Of a DNA stretch of 64,000 nucleotides, positions 20,684-29,772 are shown one piece after another. Each line of letters starts with the position of its first letter. Position 1 is the first letter of the stretch. Position numbers and translations under genes: made by a program. The stretch covers positions 496,001 through 560,000 of the forward strand of contig NZ_CP102286.1 of the NCBI RefSeq assembly GCF_025151215.1, given 5' to 3'. The notes beneath the pieces were generated by a model. It did no database searches, had not been told where the DNA came from, and saw nothing but the letters and a program-made list of their open reading frames with translations. The DNA comes from Parabacteroides merdae ATCC 43184 (GTDB lineage: Bacteria > Bacteroidota > Bacteroidia > Bacteroidales > Tannerellaceae).

Positions 20684-23122
20684 TTAACGGATGTTAGCGA
20701 TCGAAATAATATCGGCAAAGACTCCAGCCGCCGTGACATCGGCCCCGGCTCCATAGCCTTTGATGATCATAGGATACTCGTGGTATCGTTCGGTAGAGAT
20801 CATGATGATGTTGTTGCTGCCCTCCAGTTCGTAGAACGGGTGGTGGGCATCCACTTCCTGCAAACCGACTTCGCATGCCCCGTTTTCCATCTTGGCGACG
20901 AAGCGGAAACGCTTGTCTTCCGCTTCCAACTGCTGGCGCTTCTCTTCGAACCGGGCATCTAGGCCCTGTATGTTACGCCAAAAATCGTCCAGCGAGCCTT
21001 CAAAATAGCTTTCGGGAATGAAAAGGTTGCGTTTCACATCTTCCTGTTCTACTTTGTATCCGGCTTCACGTGCCAGGATTACCAGCTTGCGGATCACGTC
21101 TTTCCCGCTCAGGTCGATGCGGGGGTCCGGTTCGGAATATCCTTCTTCTTTAGCCATCATGATCGCTTTGCTGAAAGGAATGTCCGCACTCAACGTATTG
21201 AAGATATAGTTGAGCGTTCCGGAAAGGACTGCCTCCAGTTTCAGGATATGGTCGCCGCTGTTGATCAGGTCGTTCATCGTGTTGATGATCGGTAGTCCGG
21301 CCCCTACGTTCGTTTCGAACAGGAACTTGATGCCGCGGTGACGGGCTGTTTCTTTCAGTTTGATATAGTTTTCGTATGAAGAGGATGCAGCGATCTTGTT
21401 TGCCGCAACGACCGATACGTTATTGTTCAGTAATTCTTCGTACAGATCGGAGACCGCCTGGTTGGCCGTGCAGTCCACGAACACCGAGTTAAAGATATTC
21501 ATCTTCAGGATTTCTTCTTTCAGATGTTCGGGCGAACTTTCCTGTCCGTTCTTTTTCAGTTCGTCAATACAGGTTTCCAGGTTCAACCCTTCGCGGCAGA
21601 AAATGGCATGCTTGCTGTTAGCTATGCCGACCACATTCAGTTTCAGCCCGTTCTGCTGCATCAGTTTCGGTTGCTGGATGCGGATCTGTTCCAACAGGTT
21701 GCCTCCGACCGTACCGACACCCGCTATGAAAAGGTTTAACACTTTGTATTGGGAAAGAAAAAAAGAGTCGTGGATAGAGTTCAATGCCTTGCGCAGGTAT
21801 TTCAGCTTGATGACGAAAGAAATGTTCGTTTCGGAAGCCCCCTGTGCGCAGGCGATTACGCTGATACCTGCGCTGCCCAGTGTTCCGAACAACTTGCCGG
21901 CGATACCCGGAGTACGTTTCATGTTTTCGCCTACGATAGCGACAGTGGCCAGATCCTTTTCTGCTACCGTGTCGCTCATATCACCCTGGGCGCGTTCGAG
22001 TGCGAATTCTTCGTCCAATACTCTAACTGCCAGGTCTGCATCTGCATTCCGGACGGCAAATGTCGTATTGTTTTCCGAGCTGGCCTGTGATACCATAAAC
22101 ACGCTGATGCCATTCTTTGCCAATGTCTTGAAAATACGATAGTTGACGCCGATAACACCCACCATACCCAGACCTTGCACCGTGATCAGGCACGTGTCGT
22201 TGATGGAGGAAATACCTTTGATCATCGCCTTGCTGTCATCCTGCACCCGTTCTTTGGAGATATAAGTGCCCCTTGCAGTCGGGTTGAAGGTATTCAGGAT
22301 GCGGATCGGTATGTTTTTGTGATAAACCGGATAGATCGTCGGAGGATAAATCACTTTCGCTCCGAAGTTGCATAATTCCATCGCTTCCGTGAATGTCAGC
22401 CGGTCGATGACATAAGCCGAACTGATCACACGCGGATCGGCCGTCATGAAGCCGTCCACATCCGTCCAGATCTCCAGCCTGCGGGCATTAAGTGCTGTTG
22501 CCAGGATAGAGGCCGTATAGTCGGAGCCCCCGCGTCCGAGGTTAGTCACTTCTCCTTCCTTGCTGGAAGATATAAAGCCGGGAACCAGCGATACTTTAGG
22601 CAGTGGGTCGAATGTTTCTTCGATCAGGCGGTTTGTCAATTCGAAATCGACGATATGCTTGTTGAACTGTTTGACCGTTTTGATGAATTTGCGCGAGTCG
22701 AACAGTTTGGCCTCGTTTATCACGTTCGAAACGATCAGAGAGGAGATACGTTCGCCGTAGCTGACGATCGTGTCGGAAGTTTTGGCCGACAAGTCGTTGA
22801 TGAGGTACACACCTTTGTAAATATTACCCAGTTCGTCGAGCAAAGCCATCACTTGCTTCTGCACTTCGATCCGTTTTGTTTTGTCGGGGATAACACCTTG
22901 TATGACGTCGAGATGGCGGGCTACGATTTCGGAAAACTCTCTTTCATAAGCTACGTCTCCGTTCGTCGCCATCGAGGCTGTCTTCAGCAGTTTGTCCGTG
23001 ATCCCTCCTAAGGCGGATACTACGACGATTACAGGCTCTTCAATGGCCTCTACTATCTTCTTTACACTCAGGATGCTATCCACGGAACCTACGGATGTTC
23101 CGCCGAATTTCAATACTTTCAT
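20684..23122 (-). CDS. thrA: Bifunctional aspartokinase / homoserine dehydrogenase
   Basis: An 812-residue fusion. The aspartokinase half (about 1-300) starts MKVLKFGGTSVGSVDSI, with NLGRGGSDYTASILA. Two ACT domains follow (about 310-460: ISSINDTCLITVQGLGMVGVIG and VAIVGENMKRTPGIAGKLF) and would sense threonine. The homoserine dehydrogenase half (about 465-812) begins LFIAGVGTVGGNLLEQI and has GLPIINTMNDLINSGDHI and GYSEPDPRIDLSGKDV. It catalyses the first and third steps from aspartate toward Thr/Met. The start at 23122 gives the family N-terminus. A Thr-rich leader and attenuator precede it by 110-250 bp. Confidence 0.97.
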   Translation of the reverse strand: MKVLKFGGTSVGSVDSILSVKKIVEAIEEPVIVVVSALGGITDKLLKTASMATNGDVAYEREFSEIVARHLDVIQGVIPDKTKRIEVQKQVMALLDELGNIYKGVYLINDLSAKTSDTIVSYGERISSLIVSNVINEAKLFDSRKFIKTVKQFNKHIVDFELTNRLIEETFDPLPKVSLVPGFISSSKEGEVTNLGRGGSDYTASILATALNARRLEIWTDVDGFMTADPRVISSAYVIDRLTFTEAMELCNFGAKVIYPPTIYPVYHKNIPIRILNTFNPTARGTYISKERVQDDSKAMIKGISSINDTCLITVQGLGMVGVIGVNYRIFKTLAKNGISVFMVSQASSENNTTFAVRNADADLAVRVLDEEFALERAQGDMSDTVAEKDLATVAIVGENMKRTPGIAGKLFGTLGSAGISVIACAQGASETNISFVIKLKYLRKALNSIHDSFFLSQYKVLNLFIAGVGTVGGNLLEQIRIQQPKLMQQNGLKLNVVGIANSKHAIFCREGLNLETCIDELKKNGQESSPEHLKEEILKMNIFNSVFVDCTANQAVSDLYEELLNNNVSVVAANKIAASSSYENYIKLKETARHRGIKFLFETNVGAGLPIINTMNDLINSGDHILKLEAVLSGTLNYIFNTLSADIPFSKAIMMAKEEGYSEPDPRIDLSGKDVIRKLVILAREAGYKVEQEDVKRNLFIPESYFEGSLDDFWRNIQGLDARFEEKRQQLEAEDKRFRFVAKMENGACEVGLQEVDAHHPFYELEGSNNIIMISTERYHEYPMIIKGYGAGADVTAAGVFADIISIANIR

Positions 23123-23231
23123 CGATATGTATTTATTTAGTTGACAATCGGTAATCGACAATTGGCAGTTTAAAAACAAAACTGCATGCCGGTTTGAGAA
23201 TGTCAGTTATTTACTGATTATTGATTGATTT

Positions 23232-23290
23232 GAAAAAAAGAAACGCAAGTGCAATGTGAGAATTGCAACAACGCGGGACGTGGTCTCCGC
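23232..23290 (-). promoter_or_regulatory. Putative threonine attenuator (antiterminator and terminator hairpins)
   Basis: On the minus strand, downstream of the leader ORF, a terminator hairpin (23244-23274; core TGCAA / TTGCA, with a lower GCG/CGC part) is followed by a U-rich tract (complement of the A run 23233-23243). Just before it, GCGG (23287-23290) can pair with CCGC (23273-23276), which overlaps the foot of the terminator, so the two folds compete. This is the expected layout of ribosome-mediated attenuation. Confidence 0.6.
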
Positions 23291-23309
23291 ATTTGTCTAT
23301 TTGTATATG

Positions 23310-23372
23310 CTAAACCCCCCAAGGGGTCATTGTCAGTGCCCAGGTATGATATGTGAAACCTGTTAATGTCAT
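23310..23372 (-). CDS. thrL: Threonine-rich leader peptide of the thr operon
   Basis: A 20-codon ORF, MTLTGFTYHTWALTMTPWGV, too short for usual gene finders. Six of 20 residues are Thr (positions 2, 4, 7, 10, 14, 16). An AAGGAA ribosome site lies about 9 nt before the ATG and a promoter (23406-23434) about 35 nt upstream. The stop is followed by competing hairpins and a U tract, then thrA. When charged tRNA-Thr is scarce a ribosome would stall on the Thr codons and let transcription enter thrA. Function is inferred from layout; the composition is hard to explain by chance. Confidence 0.75.
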   Translation of the reverse strand: MTLTGFTYHTWALTMTPWGV

Positions 23373-23405
23373 TTGCGATTTTCCTTGTGTTTATATTTAC
23401 GTCGG

Positions 23406-23434
23406 CAATATTACGCATTATTTTTCAAATGCAA
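23406..23434 (-). promoter_or_regulatory. Candidate thr operon promoter
   Basis: TAATATTG (23406-23413) with TTG at 23432-23434, 18 bp upstream on the minus strand. One base departs from TAnnTTTG. It would give a leader of about 280 nt before thrA. Confidence 0.5.
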
Positions 23435-23494
23435 GCATTTTTTTGCCTGAAAGTTGAAATTTGACAGAAAAAAGTTCGATATCACGCCAAAAAG

Positions 23495-23516
23495 AAGGAC
23501 GTAGTTCTAACAGGAC
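23495..23516 (+). repeat. Left inverted repeat of the SusCD promoter segment
   Basis: 22 bp containing GTAGTTCTAACAGGAC, with an imperfect dyad AGTTC-N5-GGACT. It is an exact reverse complement of 23755-23776. Confidence 0.95.
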
Positions 23517-23754
23517 TTGGCGGGACGATGTTTTAGCCGGTTTTCCTGGCCATCGGAACGGAAGATTATAAAACCATCCTACTTGCATGAGGGTATAGAT
23601 TCGGTAGAAAAAAAGCCTGGAAAAAGCTTTCCTGATGGTCTTGTTATTTTACAATCTGAATATTTTTTAGCCTTTCCGATTAAAAAATATATTATTTTAG
23701 TTTGATTAATTATAAATTTAATATATTTGCATCTATTAGTGTGTCGAATACAAT
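23517..23754. promoter_or_regulatory. Probable invertible promoter segment (phase switch)
   Basis: A 238-bp segment between two perfect 22-bp inverted repeats, lying 100 bp upstream of susC. It carries one recognisable promoter, TTTG at 23701-23704 and TATATTTGC at 23722-23730, pointing at susC, so the sequence shown is the ON state. No TAnnTTTG box faces the other way inside the segment. Inversion by a site-specific recombinase would silence susC/susD. This is the known logic of Bacteroides surface phase variation. No recombinase gene is nearby, so it would act in trans. Confidence 0.8.
23701..23730 (+). promoter_or_regulatory. SusC promoter inside the invertible segment
   Basis: TTTG (23701-23704), 17-bp spacer, TATATTTGC (23722-23730). 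The transcript would cross the right inverted repeat before reaching the ATG at 23877. Confidence 0.7.
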
Positions 23755-23776
23755 GTCCTGTTAGAACTACGTCCTT
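23755..23776 (-). repeat. Right inverted repeat of the SusCD promoter segment
   Basis: Exact reverse complement of 23495-23516 over 22 bp; the flanks on either side diverge at once. Confidence 0.95.
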
Positions 23777-23876
23777 TGATTGAGGATCATTATGCTTTCT
23801 ATACCTTAAATTAAAAGGAAACGTTTTTATAGGCCAATGTGGTTATACTTGAATGTATCATTTAAATCTATTGATT

Positions 23877-26800
23877 ATGAAAAGGTTCTTTTGGGTTCTT
23901 TTTGTGATGTCCTTATGGGGACATTTGCTGATGGCGCAGGAAAAGGCTGTGTCAGGTATCGTAGTTTCTACCGAAGACGGCTTGCCGATGATCGGGGTGG
24001 CTGTCGTAGACAAGCAGACGATGAATGGCGTAACCACCAACGAAAAAGGAGAGTTTTCGATGACCGTTTCTCCTCGTACGAAAACACTGCATCTCTCTTA
24101 CTTGGGATATAAGACAAAGGAAGTCACCATTTCCGGCCGTAGCATGAAGATCGAAATGGAGCCGGACATGGTAGCTATCGACGAGGTGATGGTTGTTGCT
24201 TATGGTACAGGAAAGAAGTCGACCTTTACAGGATCGGCCAGCGTGGTCAAAAAAGAATCGCTGGAGAAGATCAAAGCATCCAATGTAACCCAGGCTTTGC
24301 AAGGGCAAAGCAGCGGTGTGCAGGTGTTGAACAATTCCGGTGAGCCGGGCGAAGATGCGACGATCATGATCCGTGGTATCGGTTCCATGAACGCATCCAG
24401 CTCTCCGCTTTATGTGGTCGACGGAACGGCTTATGACGGATACCTGAATGCTATCAACCCGAACGACATCGAGTCCATGACTATTCTGAAAGATGCCTCG
24501 GCCACCGCTTTGTACGGCTCTCGCGCAGCCAATGGGGTCGTGATGATCACAACGCGTAAGGGCGCAAGCGAGAAAGGGCAGATCAATTTCCGTTCAACTT
24601 GGGGATTCTCCAGTTTGGCTGTAGGGTTGCCGGATCAACTGTCACCAGACCAACTATCGCAATTGACTTGGCGTGCTTTGTATAATGGCTATCTGGATTC
24701 AGGTTATCGGGACGAAGATTCCCGTTCCTATGCGTCTTATTATGTGATGGGTGAGTTCGGTAATAACCCTTATAACATTGATATGCCGGTCGGGACAGAT
24801 GGGAAGATGGATCCCGATGCCAAGTTGAATTATTGGGGAGATTGGAGAAACGCTTTGTTGAAATCCCGTCTGCGTCAGGAATATACGATAGACTTCAGTG
24901 GTAAGAATAAAAAAGCCGACTACTTTATATCAGCCGGTTACCTGAACGATAAAGGTGTATTTTCTATCCAGCGTTTCGAACGCTATTCAACACGGGCAAA
25001 CTTGAATTATAATGTAAACAAATGGTTGAAGGTCGGAACCAACATCAGTTTGTCTCATAGCGTGCGCGAAGGGTCTGCCAGTGATCAGACTGTATGGCTT
25101 TTGCGTACGATGCCGACAGTGTATCCTATTTATGAATGGGACAGTGCGACGAATGCCTACAGATTGGACAAGAACGGCAATCGTATTTTTGACTACGGAA
25201 ACTACCGTACATCCTGGAGTGGGACTAACCCGTTGGCTGATGATACCTATAACAAGTCTCCTTGGACACATGACGATGTTTCCAATCGTACCTATTTTGA
25301 AATAACATTCATCCCGGGATTGAAGTGGCGTACCAATTTCAGCGTGGATTTTTATCAGTATAATTATGATGGCTATGTAAACAGCGAATATGGCTTTGCT
25401 GCCGGTTATAAAGGTTCAGCCTATAAGGAAAGTGACCGGAATCTTTCTTATACGATCAACAACCTGGTGACTTATGAGAAATCTTTCGGGGATCATTCTT
25501 TGTCCGTTTTATTGGGACAGGAAGCCTATGCCTTGGAATATAAGTTGTTATCTGCCGAAAAGCAGGGATTTCCTTTTCCTGGTGTTACGGAGATCGGTTC
25601 GGCAGCCGTGATGAGCAGCATGAATTCTTACACCGACAAATACCGTCTGTTAAGCTGGTTGAGCCGTGTCGAATATGATTATAAAGACCGTTATTACATT
25701 TCCGGTAGCTTCCGTACGGACGGCTCTTCCCGTTTTCATCCCGATAATCGTTGGGGGCAATTCTGGTCTTTAGGTGGTTCATGGAGAATATCCAATGAAG
25801 AATTCATGAAACCTTATAGTTCCTGGTTGGATAATTTGAAACTGAAAGCCAGTTATGGTGCTGTCGGTAATGATAACTTGGGGACTTATTATGCTTATCA
25901 AGGTTTGTATGCGACAGGCATGAACAACTACCGGGATCCAGGTGTTATGGTCAGCCGTTTGTCAAACAAGGATTTGAAATGGGAGACGAATTTGCAGTTC
26001 AATGTCGGGTTGGATTTTGCCGTGTTCAATAAGCTGAGCGGTAGTGTCGAGTGGTTCAGCCGTAAGTCTAAAGACCTGTTGTTTACATTGCCGATGGCTC
26101 CGTCTACCGGCATGAGCGGTATTGACCGTAATATCGGTGACGTTAAGAACCAGGGTGTCGAATTCTCTTTGAATTATGCTGCCATATCCAATAAAGATTT
26201 TAAATGGACCATCGATTTGAACGGGACATCTTATAAGAACCGTATAACCAAGTTGCCGCAGGCCGAAGTCAATGCCGGTGTCTTCAAATGGCGTGAAGGT
26301 GAATCCCGCTATAATTTCTGGGGAATCGAGTATGCAGGTGTGAACCCTGAAACCGGAAACGACCAATATTGGAAAACGATTTACGAAACAAACGACAAAG
26401 GAGAAAAAGTCGTGAAGGAACGGGTAAAGACCGAAAATTATAATGAGGTGACAAGCGACAGCCAGCAGAAATATCTGGGCGATGCCATTCCAAAATTGTT
26501 TGGAGGCTTTACCAATAACTTCTCATATAAAGGCATCGACCTTTCTTTCATGATCTATTACAGTATCGGCGGCAAGCTGTATGACAGCGACTATGCGCAA
26601 TCCATGTATTACCGGAGAGGCTATAGCATGCACCCGGATATGTTGGATTCTTGGACTCCTGAAAATCCGAATGCCGAGTTCCCTCGCTTGACCACCTACT
26701 ATAATTATGCGAATTATATGAGTTCCTATACTTCCAAATTTATTTTCAACAACTCTTTTGCGAGGTTGAGGAATATGACGTTGGGATACACGTTGCCTAA

Positions 26801-26981
26801 AAATTTCACGAAGAAGTTCCAGGTCAATTCATTACGCTTGTTCGTCCAGGGGGATAACTTGGTTACGATTGGTAGTGCAGCCCGTCGTGGTACGGACCCG
26901 GAACAAAGCATATCCGGAACGACCGCCAACCGGTTCCCGGTGACGAAGTCCGTTTCATTCGGTCTGCAACTTAATTTGTAA
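23877..26981 (+). CDS. SusC/RagA family TonB-linked outer membrane protein
   Basis: A 1034-residue TonB-dependent transporter of SusC type. In order: signal peptide (residues 1-22, ending LMAQ), carboxypeptidase-like regulatory domain (KAVSGIVVSTEDGLPMIGVAVV to about 95), plug domain (LEKIKASNVTQALQGQSSGVQV, PLYVVDGTAYDG, LKDASATALYGSRAANGVVMITT) and a beta-barrel ending in QLNL. It imports a glycan or peptide ligand with its SusD partner, energised by TonB. The ATG at 23877 gives a clean signal peptide. Expression should depend on the orientation of the 23517-23754 segment. No hydrolase gene is linked, so the ligand is unknown. Confidence 0.96.
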   Translation: MKRFFWVLFVMSLWGHLLMAQEKAVSGIVVSTEDGLPMIGVAVVDKQTMNGVTTNEKGEFSMTVSPRTKTLHLSYLGYKTKEVTISGRSMKIEMEPDMVAIDEVMVVAYGTGKKSTFTGSASVVKKESLEKIKASNVTQALQGQSSGVQVLNNSGEPGEDATIMIRGIGSMNASSSPLYVVDGTAYDGYLNAINPNDIESMTILKDASATALYGSRAANGVVMITTRKGASEKGQINFRSTWGFSSLAVGLPDQLSPDQLSQLTWRALYNGYLDSGYRDEDSRSYASYYVMGEFGNNPYNIDMPVGTDGKMDPDAKLNYWGDWRNALLKSRLRQEYTIDFSGKNKKADYFISAGYLNDKGVFSIQRFERYSTRANLNYNVNKWLKVGTNISLSHSVREGSASDQTVWLLRTMPTVYPIYEWDSATNAYRLDKNGNRIFDYGNYRTSWSGTNPLADDTYNKSPWTHDDVSNRTYFEITFIPGLKWRTNFSVDFYQYNYDGYVNSEYGFAAGYKGSAYKESDRNLSYTINNLVTYEKSFGDHSLSVLLGQEAYALEYKLLSAEKQGFPFPGVTEIGSAAVMSSMNSYTDKYRLLSWLSRVEYDYKDRYYISGSFRTDGSSRFHPDNRWGQFWSLGGSWRISNEEFMKPYSSWLDNLKLKASYGAVGNDNLGTYYAYQGLYATGMNNYRDPGVMVSRLSNKDLKWETNLQFNVGLDFAVFNKLSGSVEWFSRKSKDLLFTLPMAPSTGMSGIDRNIGDVKNQGVEFSLNYAAISNKDFKWTIDLNGTSYKNRITKLPQAEVNAGVFKWREGESRYNFWGIEYAGVNPETGNDQYWKTIYETNDKGEKVVKERVKTENYNEVTSDSQQKYLGDAIPKLFGGFTNNFSYKGIDLSFMIYYSIGGKLYDSDYAQSMYYRRGYSMHPDMLDSWTPENPNAEFPRLTTYYNYANYMSSYTSKFIFNNSFARLRNMTLGYTLPKNFTKKFQVNSLRLFVQGDNLVTIGSAARRGTDPEQSISGTTANRFPVTKSVSFGLQLNL

Positions 26982-26998: not shown

Positions 26999-28510
26999 AT
27001 GATGAAGAATATGAAATCAAAGAACTATATATTGTCGGTTTTGGCTATAGGTCTCATGACGGGAAGTATGGTTTCCTGTAGTGATTTTTTGGATACGAAA
27101 CCATCGACATCTGTCGATGATACGGATGTCTTTCAAACAACTTCCGGCGCACAGTCTGCTTTGAATGGTTGTTACTATCAAATGCGTGCCTATGGTAGCG
27201 GGGGAGCTAACCGGGGTGACGACTACGGTATACCTTCTATCCAGATGATTTCGGACATGTGCGGTGAAGATGTGATGAATAATGGTAGTGGATGGTATTT
27301 ATATAACTATAATTATTGGGGAGAAACTCAAGCTAATATATTCCGTACAGATCAGTTGTGGACCTTCCATTACCGGTTGGTCAATAACTTGAATTCCGTA
27401 ATCACTTATGTCGATGATTCGGAAGGCGAAGATATGGATAAGCAATATATCAAAGGGCAGGCTTTGGCTTTGCGCGGATGGGCCTATTTCGATTTGGCCC
27501 GCTTGTATCAGCAGACTTATGCTATCGCAAAGGACATGCCGGGAGTTCCTATTTATACGGAACCGACTGTAGACGGTACACAAGGTAAACCGCGTGGAAC
27601 GTTGGAAGAAACCTATCAGCAGATCTTGTCAGACCTGACGACTGCCGAATCGATGTTGGAGGGCTTTGTTCGTAGTTCCAGCTATCCGAACGTGTTTGAC
27701 CAAACGGTTGTACAAGGTGTTTTGTCTCAAGTCTATCAAGTAATGAATAACTGGGCGAAATCGGAAGAATATGCTAAAAAGGTGCTGGCGGTTTATCCTT
27801 TGACGACTGCAGAAGAGTATGCAAATGGATTTAATGACCATCTTACCAAATCTTGGATTTGGGGAATTAAACAGACGGAAGAGCAGAATATGGGCGACTA
27901 TTCTCCTTTTGCTATGTGGTACAACGGTGATCGTAAATGTTGGACTTTTGCAGGCTTTATCCTCTCTGATCAGTTTGTGGATTTGTTTGACGAAGATGAT
28001 ATTCGCTTCAAACAGTTCGAGAATTGGTCTACGGGTTCTGGCCAGACGAAAAAAGAATTCTGGATTTCTCATAAGTTCAGGGATAATGAGGACTGCCGCG
28101 GATCGATGGTTGTCATGCGTTCCGACGAAATGTTGCTGAATGCGGCGGAAGCTTGTGCGCACCAGGGAAAAGATACGGAAGCGAAAGCGCTATTGTGGCA
28201 GCTTCAGGACTTGCGTAATGCCAAGCGTACGGAAGCAAGTGGCGATGAACTGATCGAAGCTATTTTAAAAGAAAGAAGAAAAGAACTCTATGGAGAAGGT
28301 TTTTCTTTGTTTGATATGCTTCGGACGCAGAAGGGCCTGGAACGAACCGGTAACCATATGGACTGGGGGGGCTTGATCACGTTGCCCGCCAAATCATGGC
28401 GTTTCATCTTCCAGTTGCCGGGAGCCGAAATGAAGAACAACAAATCTTTAGTCGATGAAATCTGGCCGGCCGGTGACCAGAATCCGTTTGACGGGGTCTA
28501 TGAACCGTGA
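26999..28510 (+). CDS. SusD/RagB family nutrient-binding lipoprotein
   Basis: A 503-residue surface lipoprotein. The signal peptide ends in the lipobox SMVSC (Cys27), followed by the family start SDFLDTKPST. TPR-like helices follow, with GQALALRGWAYFDLARLYQQTY (about 155-175) and the C-terminal ERRKELYGEGFSLFDMLR typical of SusD. It forms the lid of the SusC transporter and binds ligand at the cell surface. It starts 17 bp after susC and is certainly co-transcribed, so it shares the phase-variable promoter. A hairpin at 28599-28658 may end the transcript. Confidence 0.96.
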   Translation: MMKNMKSKNYILSVLAIGLMTGSMVSCSDFLDTKPSTSVDDTDVFQTTSGAQSALNGCYYQMRAYGSGGANRGDDYGIPSIQMISDMCGEDVMNNGSGWYLYNYNYWGETQANIFRTDQLWTFHYRLVNNLNSVITYVDDSEGEDMDKQYIKGQALALRGWAYFDLARLYQQTYAIAKDMPGVPIYTEPTVDGTQGKPRGTLEETYQQILSDLTTAESMLEGFVRSSSYPNVFDQTVVQGVLSQVYQVMNNWAKSEEYAKKVLAVYPLTTAEEYANGFNDHLTKSWIWGIKQTEEQNMGDYSPFAMWYNGDRKCWTFAGFILSDQFVDLFDEDDIRFKQFENWSTGSGQTKKEFWISHKFRDNEDCRGSMVVMRSDEMLLNAAEACAHQGKDTEAKALLWQLQDLRNAKRTEASGDELIEAILKERRKELYGEGFSLFDMLRTQKGLERTGNHMDWGGLITLPAKSWRFIFQLPGAEMKNNKSLVDEIWPAGDQNPFDGVYEP

Positions 28511-28851
28511 GATTTTGGGCGGTATGTCGGAGCTACCTCCTTCTTGGTCAAAGCGATGACATACATAGTCGATGATTAAAGGAGGATTTGTATTCCCATG
28601 ATCACCGGCCTACATTTGCAGGAACGCAGGCCGCCGTTTATAGGAACGCAGGCTGGTGATTGCAGGAACGTCGGGAGACATTCCTTACGGGATTTGACAC
28701 AATTGGCACATTTGACATCGGTTTGCTAAACTATATATAGGTAATAATATATATTCAGGTATATATATACCTACATAGGTATATTAAATAATTAATTATT
28801 TATCTCGCGTATATATATTTCTACAACCCCATGTCAAATGTGCCAAATGTG
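28511..28851. repeat. Intergenic repeats between susD and the DMT gene
   Basis: No gene seen. It holds three copies of a GGAACGcaGG-type unit (28617-28675), a hairpin ATCACCGGCCT / AGGCTGGTGAT (28599-28609, 28648-28658), and a 24-bp inverted repeat (28695-28718 and 28831-28854, one mismatch; core CAAATGTGCCAA) around a 112-bp very AT-rich stretch with internal palindromes such as AGGTATATATATACCT. The right arm includes the stop codon of the DMT gene. Confidence 0.75.
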
Positions 28852-29772
28852 TCATCGTTTCCCTTTCTCCATGTCTTCCCGGCTTTTGCTCTGTGTCACG
28901 AGATAAACACCTGTGAAGACCAAGACAGCCGACAGGACTTTCTGCCAGGAAAGGGTGTCCTGGCCGATCATGACGGCAATGAACGAGGCGACGATCGGCT
29001 GCACGTAGTTGTACATGCTGACTGTTGTCGGGCGGATTCTCTTCAACGACATCGGGATGAGCAGGTAGGGGAGGAACGTCGCCCCGAAGAGGACGTAGAA
29101 GATCGCGCCCAGTTCCGTGAAGTCCCAAACCTCCCGGTGGAAAGCGGGAGCGTCGAGCACATGCCGGAAGGTGAAGGGGACCAGCGTCAGTGTCGTGAAG
29201 AGGAACATCCATTTCATCATCGTGACCGATGAATAGCGCAGGGAGAGCGGTTTCGACAGAACCAGGTAGATGGCATACATCAACCCGCTGACGATCATCA
29301 TCATGTCACCGTCGAGGCTGCTGATGCTGTCGATGGCATGCGTGGAGCTGAAGACAAGCAGCAGGCCGCCACTGACCCCCATGAACACACCGAACGACTT
29401 CTTCCGGGTGATCGGCTCCTTCAGTATGACGGCGGCCAGCAGCAGGACGAAGATCGGCACGGCGGTGGCGATGATGGAGGCGTCGACTGGAGAAGAACGG
29501 TTCAGCCCGACGATGAACAATCCCTGATTGATTCCCACTCCGCAAAGGGCGCATACAAAAAGCATCCCCAAGTCTTTCAACGGCACTTTCTCTTTTACCG
29601 TGAAGAGAGACACGATCCAGAACATCACACAGGCGAAAGCCATGCGCATGATCGTAAGACCTTCGGGGGGAACGTGTGCCGGCAGCAGATATTTGGATAT
29701 CGGCATGTTGACGGCAAACAGGATATTGGTTATCAATATCAGGATGTGACCTTTCAGTTTCTCGCTGTTCAT
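28852..29772 (-). CDS. EamA/DMT family transporter
   Basis: A 306-residue inner membrane protein with ten membrane segments arranged as two EamA repeats (about 8-140 and 158-295). Typical family residues are NMPISKYLLPAHVPPEGLTIMRMAFA in repeat one and PIVASFIAVMIGQDTLSWQKVLSAVLVFTGVYLVT in repeat two. It likely exports or imports a small metabolite such as an amino acid; the substrate cannot be inferred. It lies 11 bp downstream of fbp on the same strand and its stop codon falls within a 24-bp inverted repeat. Confidence 0.92.
   Translation of the reverse strand: MNSEKLKGHILILITNILFAVNMPISKYLLPAHVPPEGLTIMRMAFACVMFWIVSLFTVKEKVPLKDLGMLFVCALCGVGINQGLFIVGLNRSSPVDASIIATAVPIFVLLLAAVILKEPITRKKSFGVFMGVSGGLLLVFSSTHAIDSISSLDGDMMMIVSGLMYAIYLVLSKPLSLRYSSVTMMKWMFLFTTLTLVPFTFRHVLDAPAFHREVWDFTELGAIFYVLFGATFLPYLLIPMSLKRIRPTTVSMYNYVQPIVASFIAVMIGQDTLSWQKVLSAVLVFTGVYLVTQSKSREDMEKGKR

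Follow-up and report, generated by a model that had tools for sequence, protein, structure and literature searches.

A probable invertible promoter for a SusC/SusD pair in Parabacteroides merdae, and the genome-wide family of motif pairs to which it belongs

In the window analysed here, a 64,000-nucleotide stretch of the single-contig, 4,377,447-base genome of Parabacteroides merdae ATCC 43184 (G000:C1:496001-560000, with G000 designating this genome), positions 23495 to 23776 very probably constitute a site-specifically invertible promoter, i.e. a phase-variation switch, for the adjacent SusC/SusD pair, with a recombinase acting in trans; the reading draws on sequence comparison. An earlier note had proposed such an invertible promoter, and the proposal gains support from a genome-wide family of similar segments and from two family members that are inverted between relatives. 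This kind of switch, a Bacteroidales invertible SusC/SusD promoter, is already known; here it is seen as part of a genome-wide set, with an address pattern of unusual clarity and a candidate for the enzyme.

The segment upstream of susC

The arms are 22 nt long, 100% complementary, inverted and 238 nt apart (Table 1), and the exact 22-bp inverted repeats bracketing 238 bp that had been described are borne out by direct reading and by shuffling (0 of 100 dinucleotide shuffles contained the 22-mer). With up to 3 mismatches allowed, the two matches to the 22-mer in the window are the arms themselves. The genome search for the same repeat that had been suggested gave exact matches to the inner 16-mer in the 4.38-Mb genome at these arms only, and the other 27 matches listed genome-wide all carry 3 mismatches. 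The dyad AGTTC-N5-GGACT attributed to the repeats is complete at the left arm (23503-23517), but at the right arm the second half-site departs from it at the last base and reads GGACA. A scan of IMG/VR for the 22-mer gave 0 matches, and in a plasmid collection the matches were thrA-like, plus one that was unannotated, with no strain-level flipped copy.

A short non-coding segment bounded by terminal inverted repeats could equally be a MITE-like insertion, and a regulator-binding or terminator dyad is another form that a non-invertible inverted repeat could take. Either is very improbable here, given that the arms lie 238 bp apart, that an Rfam scan of 22900-24000 matched no family and that two members of the family are inverted between relatives (below); a MITE was rejected since the genome has just one copy of the segment and the sequence next to the arms shows no target-site duplication.

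Table 1. Coordinates of the features discussed. Plain numbers are window positions, except for motif pairs, which are given as G000 contig positions of the first base of each 15-mer; other coordinates carry their own prefix.
Feature	Position	Strand	Remark
Left inverted-repeat arm, AAGGACGTAGTTCTAACAGGAC	23495..23516	+	half-sites AGTTC / GGACT around core TAACA
Right inverted-repeat arm	23755..23776	-	exact reverse complement of left arm
Proposed invertible segment, 238 bp	23517..23754	.	single-copy in genome
C-TAACA-G, likely strand-exchange overlap (presumed role)	23507..23513	+	strictest partner-arm agreement in family
-33 element TTTG	23701..23704	+	direct read
-7 element TATATTTGC	23722..23730	+	direct read; aimed at susC
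susC-like TonB-dependent outer-membrane transporter	23877..26981	+	PF07715, PF13715, PF00593
susD-like lipoprotein	26999..28510	+	PF14322, PF07980
Divergent aspartokinase/homoserine dehydrogenase (thrA-like)	20684..23179	-	domain match
Candidate tyrosine recombinase, 390 aa	G000:C1:229948-231117		Arm-DNA-bind_5 + Phage_int_SAM_5 + Phage_integrase
FecR segment, G018	L178:1521-2095		FecR + FecR_C Pfam
FecR segment, G021	L183:1521-2095		FecR + FecR_C Pfam
FecR segment, G023	L199:1524-2097		FecR + FecR_C Pfam
Motif pair	265629/266419		extra copy at 265702
Motif pair	360642/361180
Motif pair	519503/519754		this locus
Motif pair	957909/958267
Motif pair	1160478/1160665
Motif pair	1370033/1370278
Motif pair	1642758/1642926
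Motif pair	2088500/2088832
Motif pair	3155300/3155562
Motif pair	3166852/3167084
Motif pair	3449323/3449555
Motif pair	4132715/4133042
Motif pair	4161415/4161584
Motif pair	4213566/4213735		one arm imperfect
Motif pair	4228451/4229246
Motif pair	4250575/4250848

Inside the segment is one directional promoter-like box, recognised by sequence match, that faces susC. The promoter elements reported earlier, TTTG at 23701 and TATATTTGC at 23722, are both present and fit the Bacteroides consensus of a -33 TTTG and a -7 TANNTTTGY (PMC8748976). From the end of TATATTTG to the right-arm 15-mer is 24 bp, and in the copies of the relatives G013, G021 and G023 the -7 box is conserved with its position, at this 24-bp distance, unchanged. 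With the box facing susC, the window shows the ON state, as had been stated; if flipped, the promoter would face the start of the thrA-like gene from a distance of ~380 bp.

Pfam places SusC-like and SusD-like genes directly downstream, in agreement with the proposed target, their control by the segment being presumed. The frame of susC is already open from an ATG at 23853, though the start originally given, 23877, is the likelier one, because a signal-peptide-like stretch appears to begin there. In best-segment comparison, SusC shares 82% identity with a P. goldsteinii locus, and 75% with another that is labelled P. distasonis. Just 3′ of susD, at 28695-28854, there is a separate 45-nt inverted repeat (84%) with arms 70 nt apart.

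The arms are also kept in G013, G021 and G023, and are exact over 22 bp in the own genome and G013. The core is TAACA in both arms in these two, and TGGTA in both arms in G021 and G023. Comparison of orientation in related genomes, as had been advised, was feasible for the copies in the same three relatives but yielded no flipped form: all four readable copies, the own one included, are ON. Excluded from this count were one relative's orthologue, part of which reads N, and G004, where the contig ends before both arms. In the 900 bp upstream of the orthologues in G003, G008, G009 and P. distasonis L078 the repeat pair is absent. In G013 the same switch, upstream of the susC orthologue (L135), is ~200 bp longer, and the added part holds a 25-nt imperfect inverted repeat.

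A family of motif pairs and their private cores

Motif searches of the own genome found 16 inverted-repeat pairs of the AGTTC-N5-GRACT-like type, this locus included, a count that rests on those searches and not on an exhaustive inverted-repeat scan, so that degenerate members may be missed; one pair, L069, was set by hand. Relaxed matching of the inner 16-mer already revealed inverted pairs elsewhere, and the core motif added further ones. Pfam, run on part of the neighbouring genes, identified SusC-type transporters adjoining six further loci (L063, L064, L070, L071, L072 and L074), a GH127 enzyme adjoining L066, a heparinase-like protein adjoining L075, an HU-binding/DUF4469 protein adjoining L068, sigma-70-type regulators next to arms at L066 and L161, a FecR protein at L073 and a GHMP kinase at L159. 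One locus (L063:3627-4437) is a three-site switch between two divergent genes of ~1030 aa, the right one SusC-type by Pfam; the extra site is a direct copy of the left one, 73 bp inward, and the spacing is identical in G013.

A different organization is seen where a segment with the same motif takes in the 5′ part of a gene for a FecR anti-sigma protein, with the right arm inside the ORF (L178, L183 and L199; Table 1). On the other flank of each is a second, divergent FecR/FecR_C frame whose 5′ end is shorter, so that inversion would swap FecR 3′ parts. Their counterparts are L073 in the own genome, with FecR and FecR_C Pfam matches, and L153 in G013, placed without Pfam.

The wider segment set started from 84 loci. 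Two (L137 and L214) gave no usable pair, leaving 82 segments selected for equal N5 (positions 6-10) and for 15-mers that differ at no more than 2 bases, and omission of one more (N) left 81 that were readable for promoter boxes. Exactly one outward TAnnTTTG lies 8-40 bp from an arm in 60 of these 81, where mononucleotide shuffles lead one to expect 4.4; among the other 21, the box is on both sides in 1 and on neither in 20. By a crude ON/OFF rule, indicative only, that looks for an ORF of 150 aa or more whose start is no further than 550 bp away, 5 of the 16 own-genome segments are OFF and 2 are ON, while 6 lie between two genes and 3 lack a single box; the 23495-23776 locus is classed 'between two genes', with its box facing susC.

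Inversion itself is seen on comparing relatives. Pairs without an interior match were left out of the orientation scoring, and what follows concerns the 31 listed of 38 scored rows, with flank score >300. Between G021 and G023, 2 of the 7 comparable loci among these rows are inverted, and 5 of 7, including the 23495-23776 locus, have the same orientation. At L192/L209 the flanks are colinear at 97.2 and 99.0%, and the interior matches at 97.4% reversed vs 68.0% as is; at L189/L206 the flanks match at 94.2 and 97.0%, and the interior at 90.6% reversed vs 75.3% as is. At the former, a SusC-type gene (Pfam Plug) lies behind the box in G021 (OFF) and is faced by it in G023 (ON), the orientation in G018 (L166) matching that in G021. 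The gene at L189 is also SusC-type by Pfam, and no box is assigned there. At L192/L209 motif position 4 differs (C/T), and the difference has remained with the flank, which places the exchange point inward of that position. Between the own genome and G013, there were 0 clear flips in the 6 comparable loci among the rows listed. A further flip between these two, L075/L155, was dropped, the flanks matching paralogous genes on both sides.

Cores were compared using the listed AGTYCNNNNNGRACT sites of five genomes, the own and four relatives: all 46 of G000, all 40 of G013 and the first 50 of 80 (G018), of 71 (G021) and of 67 (G023). Among the listed sites there are 77 pairs no more than 1.3 kb apart, not selected on core; 73 are inverted with identical N5, 2 are direct with identical N5 and 2 differ, and all other listed site pairs share a core in 21 of 5413 cases. 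It is this 77-pair comparison that gives unselected support for equality of cores within a pair, because the orthologous segments were picked for equal cores. In the 82 segments, partner arms agree at position 5 in 82/82, position 11 in 81/82 and position 12 in 78/82, with 67/82 at position 4, 41/82 at position 0 and 50/82 at position 16; by these counts, partner identity is strictest over the 7 bp C-N5-G. Tyrosine recombinases require overlap identity, and that rule, we infer, applies to this motif family.

At eight orthologous loci, this one included, the core differs between species and is nevertheless equal in both arms within each. The others are CAAGA/CGAGA (L073/L153), TGTAA/TATAA (L177/L182), TTAGT/TGAGT (L180/L185), TTATG/TAAAT (L166/L192), TGCAT/TGTAT (L167/L193), TTGTA/TTGCA (L189/L206) and, with orthology by flanks only, GATTA/GATAA (L068/L149). 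Such locus-private cores, apparently changing in both arms together, are a less expected element here, as is the position of the motif inside a FecR gene in relatives. That both arms' cores at the present locus differ together between own/G013 and G021/G023 suggests continued exchange between the arms.

These comparisons also bear on whether the segment is a former switch, now locked, in which the repeats remain although this species no longer inverts the locus, so that the promoter stays permanently ON. All four readable copies being ON and the 0 clear flips in six own/G013 loci would accord with locking. However, the exactness of the arms over 22 bp in the own genome and G013, the joint change of both cores relative to G021/G023 and the two other members of the family that are found inverted between relatives argue against it, and a locked switch is quite unlikely.

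Candidate recombinase

The genome has 23 PF00589 profile matches at E <= 0.001, the nearest to the window being at 230581 and 907800, and the earlier statement that no recombinase lies near holds for tyrosine recombinases at that threshold (0 of 23 in the window). The invertase that had been supposed to act in trans finds a plausible counterpart in a candidate tyrosine recombinase encoded elsewhere in the genome (Table 1). It adjoins three susC-like genes, at whose 5′ parts there are three AGTTCTGCAAAGACT sites in both orientations. The region as a whole (L215:595-16621, within G000:C1:214500-234000) has the organization of a SusC/SusD shufflon, in which a tyrosine recombinase accompanies the three AGTTCTGCAAAGACT sites, these being located within susC frames or next to them; the corresponding shufflon in G013 (L242) has four AGTTCTGCAAAGACT sites.

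Most of the 120 recombinase matches listed bear the name 'site-specific integrase' and come from Parabacteroides. Of 40 relatives, 12 have a full-length match, with identities of 65-98%, and G005 has a partial one (69%). Neighbourhoods of 17.5-20 kb were read in 11 of 13 genomes, the own included (not G007 and G022). By tblastn all 11 have susC-like matches, and each holds one or more motif sites, shuffles leading one to expect 0 to 0.8 per stretch, and 7 of the 11 (G000, G013, G012, G015, G020, G002 and G016) have a core-matched inverted pair; in the other four (G021, G018, G023 and G001) there is one site each, with the partner absent from the stretch read.

Motif excess was gauged as the count of AGTTCN5GAACT vs a reversed-pattern control. 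The counts are 24/7 in G000, 22/9 in G013, 54/2 in G018, 46/2 in G021 and 45/2 in G023, with excess also in G020 (25/7), G004 (21/2), G012 (14/2) and G002 (14/6). Despite a recombinase orthologue (65-76%), there is no excess in G015 (14/23), G016 (9/25), G001 (6/14), G007 (7/10) or G022 (8/10), in which the targets of the enzyme may be few, and G004 has its excess with only a 29% recombinase match in its draft. Presence of the recombinase does not predict site number.

That poor tracking, the 23 PF00589 matches in the genome and a search that covered tyrosine recombinases only leave room for the same switch being inverted by a different tyrosine or serine recombinase, which is possible but rather doubtful. 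Against it, some of the other recombinases adjoin genes that by eye resemble hsdS of type I restriction systems (L083) or upxY of capsule loci (L098, L099 and L101), and five other recombinase stretches in the own genome (L216-L220, 9-12 kb) lack a core-matched motif pair, compared with its occurrence in 7 of the 11 longer stretches around the favoured enzyme. The recombinase at L083, over cut-off for NCBIfam NF040815, was set aside on account of its position between the genes resembling hsdS.

In the favoured mechanism, a tyrosine recombinase acting in trans, for which the 390-aa enzyme is the likeliest candidate, would bind the AGTTC/GRACT half-sites and cut around the 7-bp C-N5-G overlap, with strand exchange taking place only between sites whose overlaps match, so that a private N5 would restrict each arm to its own partner and keep it from recombining with other loci. 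On inversion the promoter would turn away from susC and toward the divergent thrA-like gene, and the transporter would then be off in part of the population. A broader proposal, towards which we lean slightly, is that one Parabacteroides tyrosine recombinase runs a network of ~16 switches (at least 19 in G018), some at promoters and some within genes, with half-sites in common, with locus-private 7-bp overlaps as co-evolving addresses and with sites that also swap FecR 3′ and susC 5′ parts. By pairing each arm with its own partner, the overlaps would permit one enzyme to flip many loci without scrambling the chromosome.

Relation to known systems and meaning

By analogy, the nearest known system would be that of Tsr0667 of B. 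fragilis, which inverts three SusC/SusD clusters in the manner of a shufflon and also acts on nine other regions (PMC4747536). The likeness lies in one recombinase serving both SusC/SusD shufflons and scattered regions (PMC4747536, PMC11852207), its action here being presumed; in G000 the same motif occurs at the recombinase-linked susC shufflon and at distant sites. However, the Tsr0667 system is from B. fragilis whereas the present switch is from Parabacteroides, and the two are likened by description, not by enzyme or repeat sequence. The Mpi/FinA capsule promoters of B. fragilis are similar in that a single master enzyme governs a scattered set of short invertible promoters. These are serine-invertase promoters, and the Mpi repeat string, ARACGTTCGTN (PMC8375218), is absent from the arms here; partner arms here share a matching core of 5-7 bp, which would suit a tyrosine recombinase.

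Numerous inversion sites are reported in P. distasonis (PMC5903667), which is also among 39 genomes run through PhaseFinder, SusC/SusD-like regions being among those that differ (PMC10939037); neither this locus nor the repeat motif or invertase that belongs to it is mentioned in the accessible parts of these two surveys. A different 20-bp repeat is described at capsule loci (PMC12118408). The literature on Parabacteroides that was covered, with subscription papers mostly outside it and so weak as evidence of absence, gave no description of the motif or the enzyme.

Phase-variable SusC/SusD transporters can shape the glycans and phages that individual gut bacteria meet. With a genome-wide set, a candidate enzyme and per-locus cores in hand, the question of how one recombinase can serve many sites and yet leave the chromosome in order becomes directly testable in Parabacteroides.
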